A stretch of DNA of 9,051 bases from Deltaproteobacteria bacterium RBG_13_61_14 (GTDB lineage: Bacteria; RBG-13-61-14). The translations under genes and the position numbers were made by a program. The notes below the pieces were generated by a model that searched no databases, was not told the DNA's origin, and saw nothing but the letters and a program-made list of their open reading frames with translations. Shown in pieces: positions 3,132 to 7,810 of the stretch. The stretch covers positions 56,409 to 65,459 of the forward strand of contig MGQK01000113.1 in assembly GCA_001797815.1 (NCBI GenBank), read 5' to 3'. Every line of letters starts with the position of its first letter. The stretch's first letter is position 1.

Positions 3132-3251
3132 AAATTTGGAGTGCGGTGCTTCAGCACCGCCTTGCTTTGCGACCATTCATGGTCGCCCATCGTTCCTCAC
3201 CGATGAATCGGCGCGATAAAAAGCGGCGGTAAACCGCCGCACTCCAAATTT
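3132..3251. mobile_element. MITE-like or REP-like element with 15-bp terminal inverted repeats
   Basis: The ends AAATTTGGAGTGCGG (3132-3146) and CCGCACTCCAAATTT (3237-3251) are perfect 15-bp inverted repeats. Between and overlapping them are four hairpins: GCGGTGCT/AGCACCGC (3143-3160), GCGACCAT/ATGGTCGC (3169-3186), CCGAT/ATCGG (3200-3211) and GCGGCGG/CCGCCGC with loop TAAA (3223-3240). There is no ORF inside. Short size, terminal repeats and hairpin content fit a non-autonomous element moved by a transposase encoded elsewhere, such as a REP-associated tyrosine transposase (Y1 family). I see no clear target-site duplication. A role as bidirectional terminator or RNA stabiliser is also possible. 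Only one copy is present in the window, so mobility is inference. Confidence 0.7.
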
Positions 3252-3283: not shown

Positions 3284-3296
3284 CATTACTGTAATG
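3284..3296. promoter_or_regulatory. Perfect 13-base palindrome CATTACTGTAATG
   Basis: CATTAC and GTAATG are exact inverted copies around a single T. The size and symmetry resemble a dimer-binding operator, but there is no adjacent start codon. It lies beside the REP-like tract and may simply be part of that element. Confidence 0.3.
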
Positions 3297-3312
3297 TAAT
3301 AAGTAAAGACCT

Positions 3313-3338
3313 GACCCCTACCTTGGACCCCTACCTTG
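3313..3338. repeat. Tandem duplication of the 13-mer GACCCCTACCTTG
   Basis: Two exact head-to-tail copies occupy 3313-3325 and 3326-3338. The first follows directly after TAAGTAAAGACCT; read on the minus strand the junction is AGGGGTCAGGTCTTTACTTA. From memory, strings of this kind flank REP-associated transposase genes in environmental proteobacteria; this recollection needs a search. No transposase gene is present in this window. Confidence 0.6.
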
Positions 3339-3466: not shown

Positions 3467-3808
3467 TTAAACAATTTTGTGAATGAGGGACAGAATTTCG
3501 GACAGGGTCGAAGAGGGAAGCTTTCCGAGCTTTTTGCGGACGATGCGACGGTCCAGGGTTACGATTTTTCCGCATTTGACCTTGGAAAGCTTGGGAAGAC
3601 CTGCCTGAGAAAGGTCATCTTTCGAGAGAAGATATTCAAAGGAGGCCAGGCTGGTGGGTGATTGGGAGGTAATGGCACAGGCGATTATATCCGGACATTG
3701 CCGATGGAATTCTTCGCTGGAGATCACCAGGGCGGGGCGTTGTTTGCTGGAGCTTAAATCGGAAAAGGGGAAAGAAATCAGGATGACATCTCCATGCTTA
3801 CAAGGCAT
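3467..3808 (-). CDS. PemK/MazF-type toxin, endoribonuclease
   Basis: Proteins of this family are sequence-specific ribonucleases that block growth by cutting mRNA and are neutralised by a cognate antitoxin. The 113-residue product, within the family's usual length, opens with GDVILISFPFSD, followed by the conserved KQRPALVIS strand-loop, CAITSQ and LSKVKCGKIVTLDRRIV, all in family order. ATG 3808 lies inside the antitoxin gene (11-base overlap). GGAGG sits 12 bases before it, while the alternative ATG 3820 has GGAGG directly against it and is less likely. The overlap with a small upstream gene of antitoxin type supports a bicistronic module. The body looks intact with no frameshift. MazF, PemK and ChpB cannot be told apart from this reading. 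Confidence 0.88.
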   Translation of the reverse strand: MPCKHGDVILISFPFSDLSSSKQRPALVISSEEFHRQCPDIIACAITSQSPTSLASFEYLLSKDDLSQAGLPKLSKVKCGKIVTLDRRIVRKKLGKLPSSTLSEILSLIHKIV

Positions 3809-4004
3809 CGTAAATTTCATCCTCCGGGTTATCCCAGAACGAGAAAGCTTGCTCTGCGGCCTTCAGCCATTCCAGATCCTCGGGACCGATTTTTTGAGTC
3901 TGGAAAAGCCGGGTAAACCTGGAAAGCAGTCTCCTTTGTTCTTCCGGGCTTAAGTGTTTAATGGCCGTTTCGATTTCTTTCAGTTTGGAAGAAGATTTTT
4001 TCAT
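3798..4004 (-). CDS. Antitoxin of the PemK/MazF-type module
   Basis: Small, charged 68-residue protein directly upstream of and overlapping the toxin gene. The N-terminal half (KLKEIETAIKHLSPEEQRRLL) resembles the helical dimerisation segment of small antitoxins. The C-terminal FSFWDNPEDEIYDAL resembles the WDNxEDxxYD-type tail that I recall from antitoxins paired with PemK/VapC toxins and that likely occupies the toxin active site. ATG 4004 is chosen because MKKSSSKLKE is a plausible start and it overlaps the stop of a possible small upstream ORF as ATGA. An alternative ATG at 4034 would add MLHYQIKKKP. Neither has a strong Shine-Dalgarno. Such pairs usually repress their own promoter, but no operator was identified. 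Confidence 0.8.
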   Translation of the reverse strand: MKKSSSKLKEIETAIKHLSPEEQRRLLSRFTRLFQTQKIGPEDLEWLKAAEQAFSFWDNPEDEIYDAL

Positions 4005-4060
4005 GGGTTTTTTCTTAATTTGATAGTGTAACATTCTTCGGGGAAGTAGTCAAAAATCAT
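4001..4060 (-). CDS. Possible 19-codon leader ORF coupled to the antitoxin
   Basis: ATG 4060 starts the peptide MIFDYFPEECYTIKLRKNP, which ends in TGA at 4001-4003, overlapping the antitoxin ATG (4004) as ATGA. GGAAAGGA lies 6 bases before this ATG, a much better ribosome-binding site than either antitoxin start has. It could therefore deliver ribosomes to the antitoxin by translational coupling. Alternatively it is a remnant of a longer 5' end of the antitoxin separated by a frameshift, or chance. No known family is recognised. Confidence 0.35.
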   Translation of the reverse strand: MIFDYFPEECYTIKLRKNP

Positions 4061-4106: not shown

Positions 4107-4148
4107 TTCACTGTGCACTGTGCTCCGTGCACTGAGCACTGTTCACTA
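4107..4148. repeat. Heptamer array (6 units) after the membrane-protein gene
   Basis: Reading the plus strand in 7-base steps gives TTCACTG, TGCACTG, TGCTCCG, TGCACTG, AGCACTG and TTCACTA. The last unit contains the complement of the membrane-protein gene's TAG stop, so on the transcript the array begins at the stop codon itself. TGCACTG-type units are partly self-complementary. Confidence 0.8.
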
Positions 4149-5189
4149 CGCGAGGCGCTTGCGAAAGTCGGCAAAGAGAAGACAGCCAACCCAGGTGAAG
4201 ATGAGGGCCGGGTTATAGGCGAACTGGGGTTCGAGCGAGTCCTGGGCCGCGGCGTAAGTCAGGGACCAGGCTACCTCGAAGAGGGGGAAGATGCCCCACC
4301 AGCCGAAGCGCCAGAACACGTAACCGGCGAGCGCCAGGTGAATGGCGATCAGACCCGGGCTCCAGAGGGAGTGGAAGAACCAGATATCGTAAAAGGCGTC
4401 GGTCCAGATGGCGAGCACCCCGAAAATGACCAGGTCAGCTTCCAGGGTGAAGAGCCTGGGCTGATCCGCGATCCGGCGCCGGCGGAGGGTGAATTGGTAG
4501 AGCACGGCCAGGACTCCGAAGAGGACGGCCAGGCCGCCTTGCCAGTAGCGGTTGCGGCTGATCAGGAAGTTGGTATCCAGGAGGGAGAGGCTGCCGAGCG
4601 CGCCGGTGTGGGTGCGAAGCTCGAAGAGCAGGCCGATCGTGGCGTCATAAATTGCCGTGGCAACTTCCTGGCCGGCGTCGTTTAGGACCGCCACTTCATA
4701 GCTTGCCTGGCTGTCAAGGATTCGCGACCACAGGATCAGGCGCTTGGAAAACTTGAGTTGATAGGTTCTTCCGGCCGGACCGATCCAGCCGGCCACGTCT
4801 TTGACCCGGACGGCATTGATCGCCGCTTCGATCTTGGACCGCCGCCATTCGGTAACCGGGTTGGGAATAGCGACCCAGATCAAGGAATAGGCCTTTTCGG
4901 AATCCTCCAGGTAGCCGGTGGATTGCTCAACGGGCGATTCAATCTTTTGGCCGGCTTGAAAGGTATCTAGAACTGAGTAATGCGATTCCACGCGAATTTC
5001 AGCTAATCCGCGATAGGCGAAAAGTCCACTGCCGGAATAGGACGCGTAAAAGTCGTCCAGAAAAAAGGTCGGGTTTCTGGGATTCAGGTTGAGCCAGGAG
5101 AATGCCCACATCAGGACCAGGGGGGCGATGCCCACCCAGGCCACCCGGTAGAAAATCTTTAGCCGCTCGCGTCTTCCGAATCGAGTCAT
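4146..5189 (-). CDS. Unrecognised polytopic membrane protein downstream of ftsZ
   Basis: I do not recognise this 347-residue protein. It has a basic N-terminus (MTRFGRRERLK), then a transmembrane segment at about 12-32. A soluble region of about 180 residues follows (33-213), probably outside the cytoplasm, with alternating hydrophobic and polar residues suggesting beta structure. Five further hydrophobic segments lie near 215-233, 250-270, 277-294, 297-315 and 324-341, rich in Trp and Phe. The loop RRRR at 236-239 fits the positive-inside rule. There is no catalytic motif I can name and no cysteine pair. ATG 5189 has AGGAG 7 bases upstream. It follows ftsZ in the same direction after a 70-bp gap, so it may share the dcw transcript, but it is not a standard dcw gene. 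Confidence 0.8.
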   Translation of the reverse strand: MTRFGRRERLKIFYRVAWVGIAPLVLMWAFSWLNLNPRNPTFFLDDFYASYSGSGLFAYRGLAEIRVESHYSVLDTFQAGQKIESPVEQSTGYLEDSEKAYSLIWVAIPNPVTEWRRSKIEAAINAVRVKDVAGWIGPAGRTYQLKFSKRLILWSRILDSQASYEVAVLNDAGQEVATAIYDATIGLLFELRTHTGALGSLSLLDTNFLISRNRYWQGGLAVLFGVLAVLYQFTLRRRRIADQPRLFTLEADLVIFGVLAIWTDAFYDIWFFHSLWSPGLIAIHLALAGYVFWRFGWWGIFPLFEVAWSLTYAAAQDSLEPQFAYNPALIFTWVGCLLFADFRKRLA

Positions 5190-5224
5190 GGATCAACTCC
5201 TGATACTCTGGTGACTCTCCTTCC

Positions 5225-5252
5225 GTGAACCAGGAACCGCGAACCGTGAACT
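5225..5252. repeat. Heptamer array (4 units) after ftsZ
   Basis: Four 7-base units are seen on the plus strand: GTGAACC, AGGAACC, GCGAACC and GTGAACT, with consensus GNGAACC. On the transcript the array begins 8 bases after the ftsZ TGA and ends 35 bases before the next start codon. It is related to, but not identical with, the arrays after ftsA and after the membrane-protein gene. Confidence 0.75.
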
Positions 5253-5259
5253 TTTCTTT

Positions 5260-6402
5260 TCAATCGCTCTGCCGCCGCAGGAAAGTCGGGATGTCGTATT
5301 CCTCCTCGCTGGCCTCCTCTTTCAGGTAAGCCTGGACCCGGCGGGCCTTGCTCGCGCCGCCCTCGGACTGCTTCTTCCGGATCAAGGTGGGGATGTCCAG
5401 GTTGGGCCGGGACTCGGCCGCGGCCGAGGGCTTGAAGCGCATGCGCATGTCGCGGTTGAAGTCCTGGAACCCGGTGGCGATCACGGTCACCTGGACCGCG
5501 CCGTTGCGGCTTTGCTCGATCACGTCGCCGAAAATGATGAGCGCGTCCTCGTGCGCCTCCTCCCGGATCAGGTTGCAGGCCTCGCTGATCTCGTGCAGGG
5601 TCAGGTCCGACCCGCCGGTGATGTTGATGAGCACGCCCTTGGCCCCCTCGATGCGCACGTCGTCGAGCAGGGGGTTGGAGATGGCGTTGTGCGCGGCCTC
5701 CACCGCCCGCTCCTCGCCCTCAGCCGAGCCGGTGCCCATCAGGGCCATGCCCCGCTCGCTCATGATGGTGCGCACGTCGGCAAAGTCCACGTTGATGTGG
5801 CCGCCCACCCCGATCAGGTCGGCGATGCCCTTGACCGCCTGCAAGAGCACCTCGTCCGCCTTCTTGAAAGACTCGAGCACGGTGGTGTTCTTGCCCACGA
5901 TGTTGAGCAGCCGCTGGTTGGGGATCACGATCAGCGAGTCCACGTGCTCCTTGAGCTCCTCGATCCCCTGCAAGGCGTAGCGCGAGCGCTTGCGGCCCTC
6001 GAAGTCAAAGGGCTTGGTCACCACCCCCACGCAGAGCGCGCCCGCCTCCCGTGCGAGCTGGGCGATCACCGGCGCCCCGCCGGTGCCGGTGCCGCCGCCC
6101 ATGCCGGCGGTGACAAACACCATGTCCGCGCCGGCCAGCGCCTCTTCCAACTGGGCCCGGTTCTGCTGGGCCGCCTGCCGGCCCACCTCGGGGTTGCCGC
6201 CGGCGCCCAGGCCCTGGCCCAGTTGCACCTTGACCGAGGCCGAGTTCATCTCCAGGGCCTTGGCGTCGGTGTTGGCCGCGATGAATTCAACCCCTTGCAG
6301 GCTGCCGGCGATCATGGTGTTGATCGCATTCCCGCCGCCGCCTCCCACTCCGACCACTTTCAGCTTGGCCGCATGAGTTTCCGCTTCCACTAATTCCAGC
6401 AT
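5260..6402 (-). CDS. ftsZ: Cell division protein FtsZ
   Basis: FtsZ is the tubulin-like GTPase that polymerises into the Z ring on the inner face of the membrane and recruits the divisome. From [10 protein letters not shown] the protein has 380 residues. It shows [13 protein letters not shown] (18-30), NTDAKAL (44-50), the tubulin signature GGGTGTGG (102-109) and the T7 synergy loop NVDFADVR (204-211) with its catalytic acidic residues. A variable linker leads to the C-terminal peptide [13 protein letters not shown] (368-380), which binds FtsA and other tethers. A second DIPT motif ([11 protein letters not shown], 335-345) precedes the linker end. ATG 6402 is favoured by the strong ribosome-binding site AGGAGGAGG. 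The frame is open 45 codons further up, but that part only translates a DNA repeat and starts with TTG. All GTPase motifs look intact. Confidence 0.97.
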
Positions 6403-6429
6403 CGTCTTCCTCCTCCTGTTTCCGCTTTC

Positions 6430-6446
6430 TTGTTCAATTCGAACAA
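6430..6446. repeat. Small inverted repeat upstream of ftsZ
   Basis: TTGTTC (6430-6435) and GAACAA (6441-6446) are exact inverted copies around AATTC, lying 28-44 bases before the ftsZ ATG. It could form a short hairpin in the leader or serve as a protein-binding site. The GAAC/GTTC core loosely recalls SOS boxes of some lineages, but the match is too weak to claim. Confidence 0.35.
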
Positions 6447-6488
6447 ACTTTAGCCGCAACCTCCCGCCGCGGTTAATGCCTGGAAGTA

Positions 6489-6584
6489 GTGCACAGTGCA
6501 CGGTGCACGGTGCACAGTGAAAAGTGCTAAGTGCCAATTAAAATTTCCACCTCTTCACCCTTCACTCTTCACCCTTCATCCTTC
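6489..6584. repeat. Compound heptamer array in the ftsA-ftsZ gap
   Basis: Two blocks are present on the plus strand. Block one (6489-6537) is seven 7-base units: GTGCACA, GTGCACG, GTGCACG, GTGCACA, GTGAAAA, GTGCTAA and GTGCCAA. After 15 AT-rich bases, block two (6553-6580, running on as CTTC to 6584) is CTTCACC, CTTCACT, CTTCACC and CTTCATC. Block two contains the complement of GTGAAG-type units, so the blocks are inverted relative to each other: AGTGAAAAGTG (6516-6526) can pair with CACCCTTCACT (6557-6567) at 9 of 11 positions. The array touches the ftsA stop codon. Confidence 0.85.
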
Positions 6585-7810
6585 TAAAAGAACTCCACCA
6601 GCCATTCCTTCATCCGCTCCATCACCTTCTGGAAGAGGTTGTCGTCGCGGATGCGGAAGCGCCGCTGCGAGCGGTGCTTGCTCCCGTAGATCAACAGCCC
6701 GACCCCGGTGGCATACATGGGGCTGTTGACCACGTCCACCAGGCCGCCGATGCCGAGCGGCCGGCCCACCCGCACCGGCATCTCAAACACCTGCTCGCCC
6801 AGCTCCTCCATCCCGGCCATGAGCGCGGCCCCGCCGGTGAGCACCGCGCCCGAGGCAACGGTGTCCTCATACCCGGCCCGGGCGCACTCGCGCCGGACCA
6901 GGGCGAAGATTTCCTCCACCCGCGGCTCCACGATCTCGCACAGGAGCTGGCGCGGCATCACCCGCGGCTTGCGGCCGCCCACCGAAGGCACCTCGATGGT
7001 CTCATCCTTGCCCACCAACTGGGTGGTGGCGCAGCCGAATTTCTTCTTGATCTTCTCCGCCTCCGCGGTGGGCGTGCGCAAGCCGGCGGCGATGTCGTTG
7101 GTGATGTTGTCGCCGCCCAGCCCCAGCACCGAGGTGTGCTTGAGCGAGCCCTGGTGCCAGATGGCGAGGTCGGTGGTGCCGCCGCCGATGTCCACCAGGG
7201 CGACGCCGATCTCCTTCTCGTCGGGGGTGAGCACGGCCTCGGAACTGGCGAGCTGCTCGAGCACGATGTCGGCGACGTTGAGCCCGGTGCGGTTGCAGCA
7301 GCGCACGATGTTCTGGGCCGAGGTGATGGCGCCGGTGACGATGTGCACCCGGGCCTCCAGCCGCACCCCGGACATGCCCAGGGGGTCCTTGATCCCCTCC
7401 TGGTCGTCCACGATGAACTCCTGGGGCAGGATGTGGATCACCTCGCGGTCCATGGGGATGGAGACGGCGCGGGCCTGGTCCACCACCCGCTTGATGTCAA
7501 TCTCGCTCACCTCGCGGTTCTTGATCGCCACCACCCCGTGGCTGTTGAGGCCCTTGATGTGGCCGCCGGCGATCCCGGCATAGACGGTGTTGATCTCGCC
7601 CCCGGCCATCAGCTCGGCCTCTTCCACCGCCTGCTTGATGGATTCGACGGTGGCGTCGAGGTTGACCACCACGCCTTTGCGCAAGCCGTGCGAAGGCGAG
7701 GTGCCGATGCCGACGATGTCAATGCCCTCGGGGGTCAAGTCCCCGACGATCGCACAGATCTTGGTCGTGCCGATATCCAGACCCACGATTTGCTTGTCCC
7801 GCTTGGCCAT
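6584..7810 (-). CDS. ftsA: Cell division protein FtsA
   Basis: FtsA is the actin-like ATPase that tethers FtsZ filaments to the inner membrane. The 408-residue protein has the actin-fold motifs in order: phosphate-1 LDIGTTK (11-17), phosphate-2 VDIGGGTTDLA (206-216) and the adenosine motif LTGGAALM (324-331). The FtsA-specific 1C insertion lies roughly at 85-165, where actin's 1B would otherwise be. The last residues, NLFQKVMERMKEWLVEFF (391-408), form an amphipathic helix with Trp and Phe, as expected for the membrane-targeting tail. ATG 7810 has GGGAG 6 bases upstream. It lies between ftsQ and ftsZ in classic order. The length is normal and no residue looks damaged. Confidence 0.97.
   Translation of the reverse strand: MAKRDKQIVGLDIGTTKICAIVGDLTPEGIDIVGIGTSPSHGLRKGVVVNLDATVESIKQAVEEAELMAGGEINTVYAGIAGGHIKGLNSHGVVAIKNREVSEIDIKRVVDQARAVSIPMDREVIHILPQEFIVDDQEGIKDPLGMSGVRLEARVHIVTGAITSAQNIVRCCNRTGLNVADIVLEQLASSEAVLTPDEKEIGVALVDIGGGTTDLAIWHQGSLKHTSVLGLGGDNITNDIAAGLRTPTAEAEKIKKKFGCATTQLVGKDETIEVPSVGGRKPRVMPRQLLCEIVEPRVEEIFALVRRECARAGYEDTVASGAVLTGGAALMAGMEELGEQVFEMPVRVGRPLGIGGLVDVVNSPMYATGVGLLIYGSKHRSQRRFRIRDDNLFQKVMERMKEWLVEFF

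Follow-up and report, generated by a model that had tools for sequence, protein, structure and literature searches.

The intervening sequence (IVS) of Coxiella burnetii has a 28-bp terminal stem, and in it the motif AGAAGA followed by tandem GACAGAT heptamers lies ahead of an S23p open reading frame (PMC4990558). Heptamers are also known as dispersed repeats. Rehm et al. (2015) described GGGNATC heptamers in Xanthomonas and Nostoc, in runs of about four units and with 70-75 convergent pairs per Xanthomonas genome (PMC4692102). The G-rich strand of these repeats is in sense within 50 bp past stop codons and antisense before starts, the layout around ORFs in Nostoc is similar, and the repeats were read as G-quadruplexes, generally without a link to mobile elements (PMC4692102). 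The TAACTGA repeats of the Beggiatoaceae are intergenic direct repeats of a heptamer with a patchy distribution across phyla (MacGregor 2015, PMC4679880).

The arrays analysed here are intergenic heptamers like the TAACTGA repeats, but the latter consist of one unit, lie mostly just 5' of starts and are direct, not convergent. REP, BIME and REPIN sequences are likewise intercistronic palindromes, some of them close past stops; they lack a heptamer period, and the gene that goes with them encodes a Y1 transposase (RAYT). With the GGGNATC class our arrays share the period of 7, about four units per array, the intergenic position, the sense polarity past stops and the convergent pairs, whereas the single G-rich unit of that class is replaced here by many unit families and by a link to PF05635 genes. 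The likeness to 23S rRNA IVSs with an S23p/IVP ORF lies in the terminal inverted-repeat stem and in the purine lead followed by heptamers, as in Coxiella (PMC4990558); the copies in the window differ from these in that they are intergenic and at stop codons, lack the ORF and have a different unit at each site. Beyond the Coxiella IVS paper, a literature search that left subscription journals mostly outside its reach returned no publication that connects PF05635 genes to intergenic heptamers.

The window is a 9,051-nt stretch of the genome of Deltaproteobacteria bacterium RBG_13_61_14, and the features considered here are all on its minus strand. The ftsA gene (6584..7810, C-terminus ...KEWLVEFF, stop 6584-6586) is followed at 0 bp by an array of about 4.5 units of the GTGAAGG type (6553..6584), the G/T-rich strand being in the sense of the gene. 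A short spacer or loop (6538..6552) separates this arm from its convergent partner (6489..6537), which is of the GTGCACA/AGTGAAA type and A/C-rich in gene sense. A lone G/T-rich arm of the GGTTCAC type (5225..5252), preceded by the purine lead AAAGAAAA, lies 8 bp past the stop of ftsZ (5260..6402, ORF end at 5260), and another of the AGTGCAC type (4107..4148) follows a membrane-protein gene without a Pfam match (4146..5189, ORF end at 4146). The last two bases of the TAG stop of this gene are part of the first unit of its array. The C-termini of FtsA and FtsZ look natural for their families, which indicates that the arrays come after genuine stops.

These four arrays of 7-base period, reported in an earlier, sequence-only reading, are all present. 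Its statement that they begin 0 to 8 bases past stops holds for ftsA (0) and ftsZ (8); in gene sense the offset of the membrane-protein gene is -2, and the 6489-6537 array, which is opposite in sense to 6553-6584 and starts 46 bp past the ftsA stop, is a convergent partner. That reading overlooked the pairing of arrays, and also the inverted arrays behind thiG, the fourth window gene with repeats behind it, where 8/9-mers occupy 2198-2271.

In sense orientation, RNA of the ftsA-ftsZ gap (6480-6590) is predicted to fold at -40.1 kcal/mol (z = -3.6). This gap has the terminal inverted repeats and stem of an IVS, which the remaining two arrays of the window, as single arms, lack. All lie between protein genes, not within 23S rRNA; an Rfam search of the window returned no family and no rRNA. 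There is no PF05635 gene in or beside the window, so that the link to IVSs there rests on anatomy and on units shared with copies elsewhere.

The genome of the window (G000) comprises 4.74 Mb in 132 contigs and is 95% complete; its lineage is isolated, with two other species of the same order available for comparison. Stretches amounting to 1.38 Mb were sampled, including some chosen for GTG-type arrays, genes were called by our own script (hexamer model), and arrays were identified by a lag-7 match scan. The sample contains 171 intergenic period-7 arrays, 123 of them in same-strand (tandem) gaps. In the first 747 kb, which include 107 kb of intergenic DNA, 85 period-7 arrays are intergenic and 4 are in genes, against 0 in dinucleotide shuffles, while each of the other periods from 4 to 13 accounts for at most 14 arrays in intergenic DNA. 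Stretches sampled without bias (254 kb, 30 kb intergenic) hold 32 arrays, which extrapolates to about 600 for the genome. A dispersed repeat family of about 530 bp in this genome also bears arrays.

The arrays are concentrated just past stop codons. Within 5 bp of a stop lie 37 of the 123 tandem-gap arrays, compared to 10.9 ± 2.5 under uniform placement, a naive null that ignores the need of starts for a clear ribosome-binding site; within 10 bp the numbers are 50 and 17.4. Before starts there was no excess among the same 123 arrays (3 within 5 bp, 7 within 10 bp), and the preference for stops persists in gaps of 200-1000 bp. The sequence-only reading had judged three of three genes to be beyond chance and had named a genome scan for stop preference beforehand as a test that could refute it; on that scan stops are favoured and starts are not, and chance or an oddity of this window is ruled out by the shuffles together with the genome sample.

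The unit families include TTTTGGA, AGGCTTT, TGGTTCC, GTGAAGG, GTGCACA, GTATGTC, GTAGGTC, GTGTCAR and GGTTGGC, with a period of 7 in every one, and copy number peaks at 4-5 units. A fixed family sequence for the arms was considered and rejected, as units vary between sites and between genomes. The arrays have a polarity: past stops the G/T strand is in sense in 48 cases and antisense in 17 (P = 1.5e-4), and before starts the G/T-rich strand leans antisense, 29 to 14. Among arrays less than 60 bp apart, both members of the pair have a unit in common in 16 of 24 convergent pairs, in 0 of 4 divergent pairs and in 1 of 12 tandem pairs; in the convergent same-unit pairs the G/T-rich arm comes first in sense. 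For 189 arrays a stem partner was sought in the flanks, and it was found on the inner side in 43, on the outer side in 1 and in the flank of another array in 4. The convergent same-unit pairing and the inner position of stem partners indicate that the structural unit is a hairpin with heptamer arms. Such hairpins often bridge the whole gap between two operon genes, and purines, often as (A)AGA or AGAAG, predominate just beyond the outer arm. A recognisable inner partner is present in only about one quarter of arrays, the remainder being single arms.

Eight PF05635 genes (23S_rRNA_IVP, S23, a four-helix bundle) were identified in this genome by family search, and the predicted protein matches the solved Xanthomonas campestris protein XCC0516 (2GSC) at E = 1e-25. 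Of the longer convergent same-unit pairs, those on C81, C65 and C35 each enclose one of these genes. All eight adjoin arrays, in most cases with a matched pair around the gene, and the upstream array is at a stop codon or next to one; the genes measured are within 16 bp of the stop of a long ORF. The stem score of the arms is at least 22 in six of the eight (22-33.5), and at the remaining two loci the downstream flank contains an N-run in one case and the array is weak and short in the other. Ordinary genes of similar size (n = 234) have arrays on both sides in one case and a stem score of at least 16 in 18.

The units of the IVP elements, TGGTTCC, GTAGGTC, AGGCTTT, GTATGTC, GTGAAGG and TTTTAGA, are also abundant families among gene-less arrays, and for six of the eight IVP genes the unit is found in gene-less arrays elsewhere in the genome. 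Units of the genome's own IVP loci match 99 of 180 gene-less arrays, whereas the same number of units drawn from foreign genomes matches 49 ± 16 (500 draws, maximum 92). The other 81 match no own IVP unit, and some of these families may descend from IVP elements that are now extinct. Simple internal deletion of IVP elements was considered as the source of the gene-less hairpins, but no derivation was visible when their loops were compared to those elements.

The association extends to distant bacteria. PF05635 genes are present in 43 of the 116 genomes examined, nearly all of which are distant relatives of this one. At 83 usable loci from about 35 genomes, complementary flanks (score of at least 16) occur in 72%, compared to 1.7% when the flanks of different loci were combined. 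The upstream flanks have period 7 at 45 loci and period 8 at 12, any other period being found at no more than 2, and the outer edge of the upstream array is -30 to +12 bp from the stop of a same-strand long ORF at 40 of 62 loci, versus 3% at random positions. Neither array nor stem was found at 5 of the 83. One genome (G202) has 15 hairpins and a single IVP gene with an arm type common to all, and its congener G061 has neither. In Azospirillum lipoferum the IVP copy is inside the 23S rRNA, with heptamer arms of the GAGGACR type on both sides.

At ten plasmid loci, from Nostoc, Calothrix, Pseudanabaena, Geminocystis, Picosynechococcus, Gemmatirosa and Azospirillum, the flanks are complementary without exception and almost always of period 7 or 8, and several of these loci are between operon genes (cas6/cas4, cas10/cmr3, nrdB/nrdA). 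The STRRs of filamentous cyanobacteria are also heptamers dispersed between genes and are not known to have been described with a linked gene; the PF05635 genes of cyanobacterial plasmids are flanked by such arrays. The earlier view that the setting in the window is unlike that of cyanobacterial heptamer repeats finds no support, as the arms are the same at these plasmid loci and the layout is the same or similar in Xanthomonas and Nostoc (PMC4692102). Of the three suggestions in that reading, an insertion mechanism favouring gene ends is the one that gains support, from the paired arms, from the units common to gene-bearing copies and from the position at stops in this genome and in other phyla.

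A comparison of two families of the same order illustrates how the arms change. G000 and G002 have an insertion in common, between an ABC permease gene (VLRKKG*/VLRKKM*) and a binding-protein gene, and the IVPs of this insertion are reciprocal best hits with 62-65% identity. Its arms are of the GTGAAGG type in one genome and GTAAATA-like in the other; complementarity is higher within each pair of arms (22.5 and 19.5) than between the two pairs (11.5 and 14.0). To judge from these sequences, and in this one case, both arms appear to have been altered together while gene and stem stayed, either because the stem is selected and the arms co-evolve or because both are rewritten by copying. The relationship between the IVP proteins makes it less likely that the difference arose through a second insertion at a hot spot. 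At the ftsA-ftsZ gap G002 is without arrays (45 bp versus 181 bp), though its FtsZ is only 58% identical, and no clean empty site was found in the genomes compared, which are partly fragmented drafts and in some cases incomplete.

Concerted change of both arms at an orthologous site is what selection on a stem would produce, and the location past stops and the strong folds (z = -3.6 and -4.0) also fit the idea that these are immobile intercistronic RNA hairpins or G-quadruplexes, selected to end, process or protect operon mRNAs. We regard this as unlikely. Two unrelated gaps of the genome hold nearly the same hairpin with a common tail (L175), and the gene pairs involved, judged by eye, look sporadic. 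G-quadruplex formation was proposed for GGGNATC repeats (PMC4692102), but most units here, among them TTTTGGA, AGGCTTT, GTGAAGG and GTATGTC, are without the G runs of that class, and the layout is identical; G-quadruplexes were therefore rejected as the general basis.

Palindromes of the REP/REPIN kind, spread by Y1 (HUH) transposases and retained near stops for mRNA stability or translational control, are a further and distinctly improbable reading. This genome has 19 Y1_Tnp genes, and Y1_Tnp is found in 36 of 43 genomes with PF05635 versus 33 of 73 without (P = 4e-5), but genome size and mobile-element load are confounders of this association. In E. coli, translation is affected by REPs that lie within 15 nt of a stop, according to earlier work cited in a passage of PMC12306157. 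Each REP family has a conserved sequence; in the arrays it is the period that is conserved, with variable units, and the gene between matched arms is PF05635, not Y1.

That the arrays are simple-sequence repeats, grown by local replication slippage and tolerated between genes only, with no element involved, is very unlikely: many bacterial genomes have an excess of heptamer repeats, with variable copy number (PMC4692102), Coxiella strains are found one unit apart (PMC4990558) and the arrays avoid genes in this genome, but slippage alone, already strained by the mispaired-flank control, leaves unexplained the convergent same-unit pairs of fixed polarity, the adjacency to stops and not to starts, the association with a single protein family in different phyla and the joint change of both arms at one locus.

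The reading we prefer, and consider highly probable, is that the arrays are the terminal arms of selfish, IVS-like elements between genes, mostly as remnants or derivatives that lack the gene. Gene-bearing and gene-less copies share units, the same anatomy occurs in a 23S rRNA insertion, and PF05635 genes lie between stop-adjacent, convergent arms of regular period here and in about 35 genomes; from these points we infer mobility, selfishness and a role for the protein. A full element would consist of a G/T-rich heptamer array, typically of 4-5 units, an S23/IVP (PF05635) gene and a complementary array, placed directly past a stop codon, and its arms would pair into a long RNA stem. The window copies would be gene-less: a two-arm hairpin in the ftsA-ftsZ gap, and one single arm each behind ftsZ and behind the membrane-protein gene. 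Insertion would take place where harm is least, either in a variable helix of rRNA or in the interval from a stop to the following ribosome-binding site; stop codons may be favoured because an insert in that interval does no damage, and a true preference for the target may or may not add to this. By analogy to what is published for rRNA IVSs, RNase III may cut the stem so that upstream and downstream host products survive. An effect of the arrays on mRNA ends is plausible because the transcripts are predicted to fold into stems. The four-helix-bundle protein may recognise its own stem in cis, serve gene-less copies in trans and aid their spread.

As to the enzyme behind such spread, a genome-encoded reverse transcriptase was rejected: there are no RVT_1 genes in G000 to G002, which leaves RNA-mediated copying by a reverse transcriptase of the host genome's own unsupported, and across the 116 genomes RVT_1 is found in 12 of 43 genomes with PF05635 and in 21 of 73 without (P = 1). 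Y1 transposases could act as helpers, supplied in trans.

Taken with the present data, the published descriptions of the Coxiella IVS and of the GGGNATC repeats are consistent with a single class. Whether this extends further is, in our estimation, evenly balanced: the heptamer repeats of many bacteria (STRRs, GGGNATC) and the S23/four-helix-bundle genes would then be one bacteria-wide class of minimal selfish element, with heptamer-armed RNA stems, targeting the base past stop codons or the tips of rRNA helices, and with arms rewritten in concert while the period is kept. If true, such rewriting with retention of the 7-base period implies that the repeat is actively copied or enforced by some mechanism and does not simply drift.

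IVS-like elements have so far been recognised chiefly inside bacterial ribosomal RNA genes, and the elements proposed here would be intergenic and widespread. A single origin would be offered for bacterial heptamer repeats, which have no accepted origin, and for the common S23/four-helix-bundle genes of unknown purpose that are seen within nrd, cas and ABC-transporter operons. For annotation the implication is one of caution, in that such genes and repeats within operons would be insertions, not operon members. Whether rRNA intervening sequences are mobile, a long-standing question, would become testable in cultivable hosts.

Two copies of one hairpin, at positions 6755-6854 and 10119-10214 of the analysed stretch L175, are 98.9% identical over 93 bp and occupy two unrelated gaps with 3.4 kb between them. 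Both copies carry the 24-bp tail CGTAGAACCCTGACACCTYTTCGG, and they differ at the outer end of one arm. The window's own genome contains a dispersed repeat of about 530 bp, whose copies (C81:60769-61583, C33:2438-3199, C82:11878-13256 and C130:13577-14920) are 80-89% identical. In addition to 20-bp repeats (CAACCACCCCATTCTGC), it includes one array of GTGAAGG units and one of ACATACG units. Long gaps are filled by nested mosaics of many repeat types.

Within the window, thiG is the fourth gene with repeat arms following its stop codon. The thiG-thiE gap holds 8/9-base arrays as an inverted pair (2198-2271; CCACAAAGACACAAAGGCACAAAA ... TGTCTTTGTGCCTTTGTGGT) that starts about 8 bp 3' of the thiG stop; unlike the heptamer arrays at the other three stops, these have A/C-first polarity and a period other than 7. 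They resemble the 9-mer palindromes (CACAGAGGA) that follow ftsZ in G002, a genome from another family of the same order (L213 3620-3830).

Between thiG and the PemK/MazF-like toxin gene (3467-4034; PF02452) lies a MITE-like palindromic stretch (3139-3246) with termini TTTGGAGTGCGG...CCGCACTCCAAATT. Positions 3296-3338 hold a motif, GTAAAGACCTGACCCC, with the 13-bp tandem GACCCCTACCTTG. The GACCTGACCCC part of this motif is found again at L185 12865 and, on C79 near position 27290, beside a Y1 transposase gene. A 78-aa ORF upstream of the toxin gene, without a Pfam match, probably encodes its antitoxin.

Among the other genomes compared, G018 has about 14 GTGAAGG units in a perfect array (C61:847-949), much longer and cleaner than the arrays of the window's genome. 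Genome G010 has 19 matches to PF05635, the four-helix-bundle (S23) family; the matches are partial and lie back to back in pairs, one on each strand (for example, C7:104028-104225 (-) and C7:104402-104554 (+)). These pairs are possibly large palindromes. On cyanobacterial plasmids (loci L304, L311 and L306), PF05635 genes are inserted between cas6 and cas4, cas10/cmr2 and cmr3, and nrdB and nrdA. They are easily misread as operon members.
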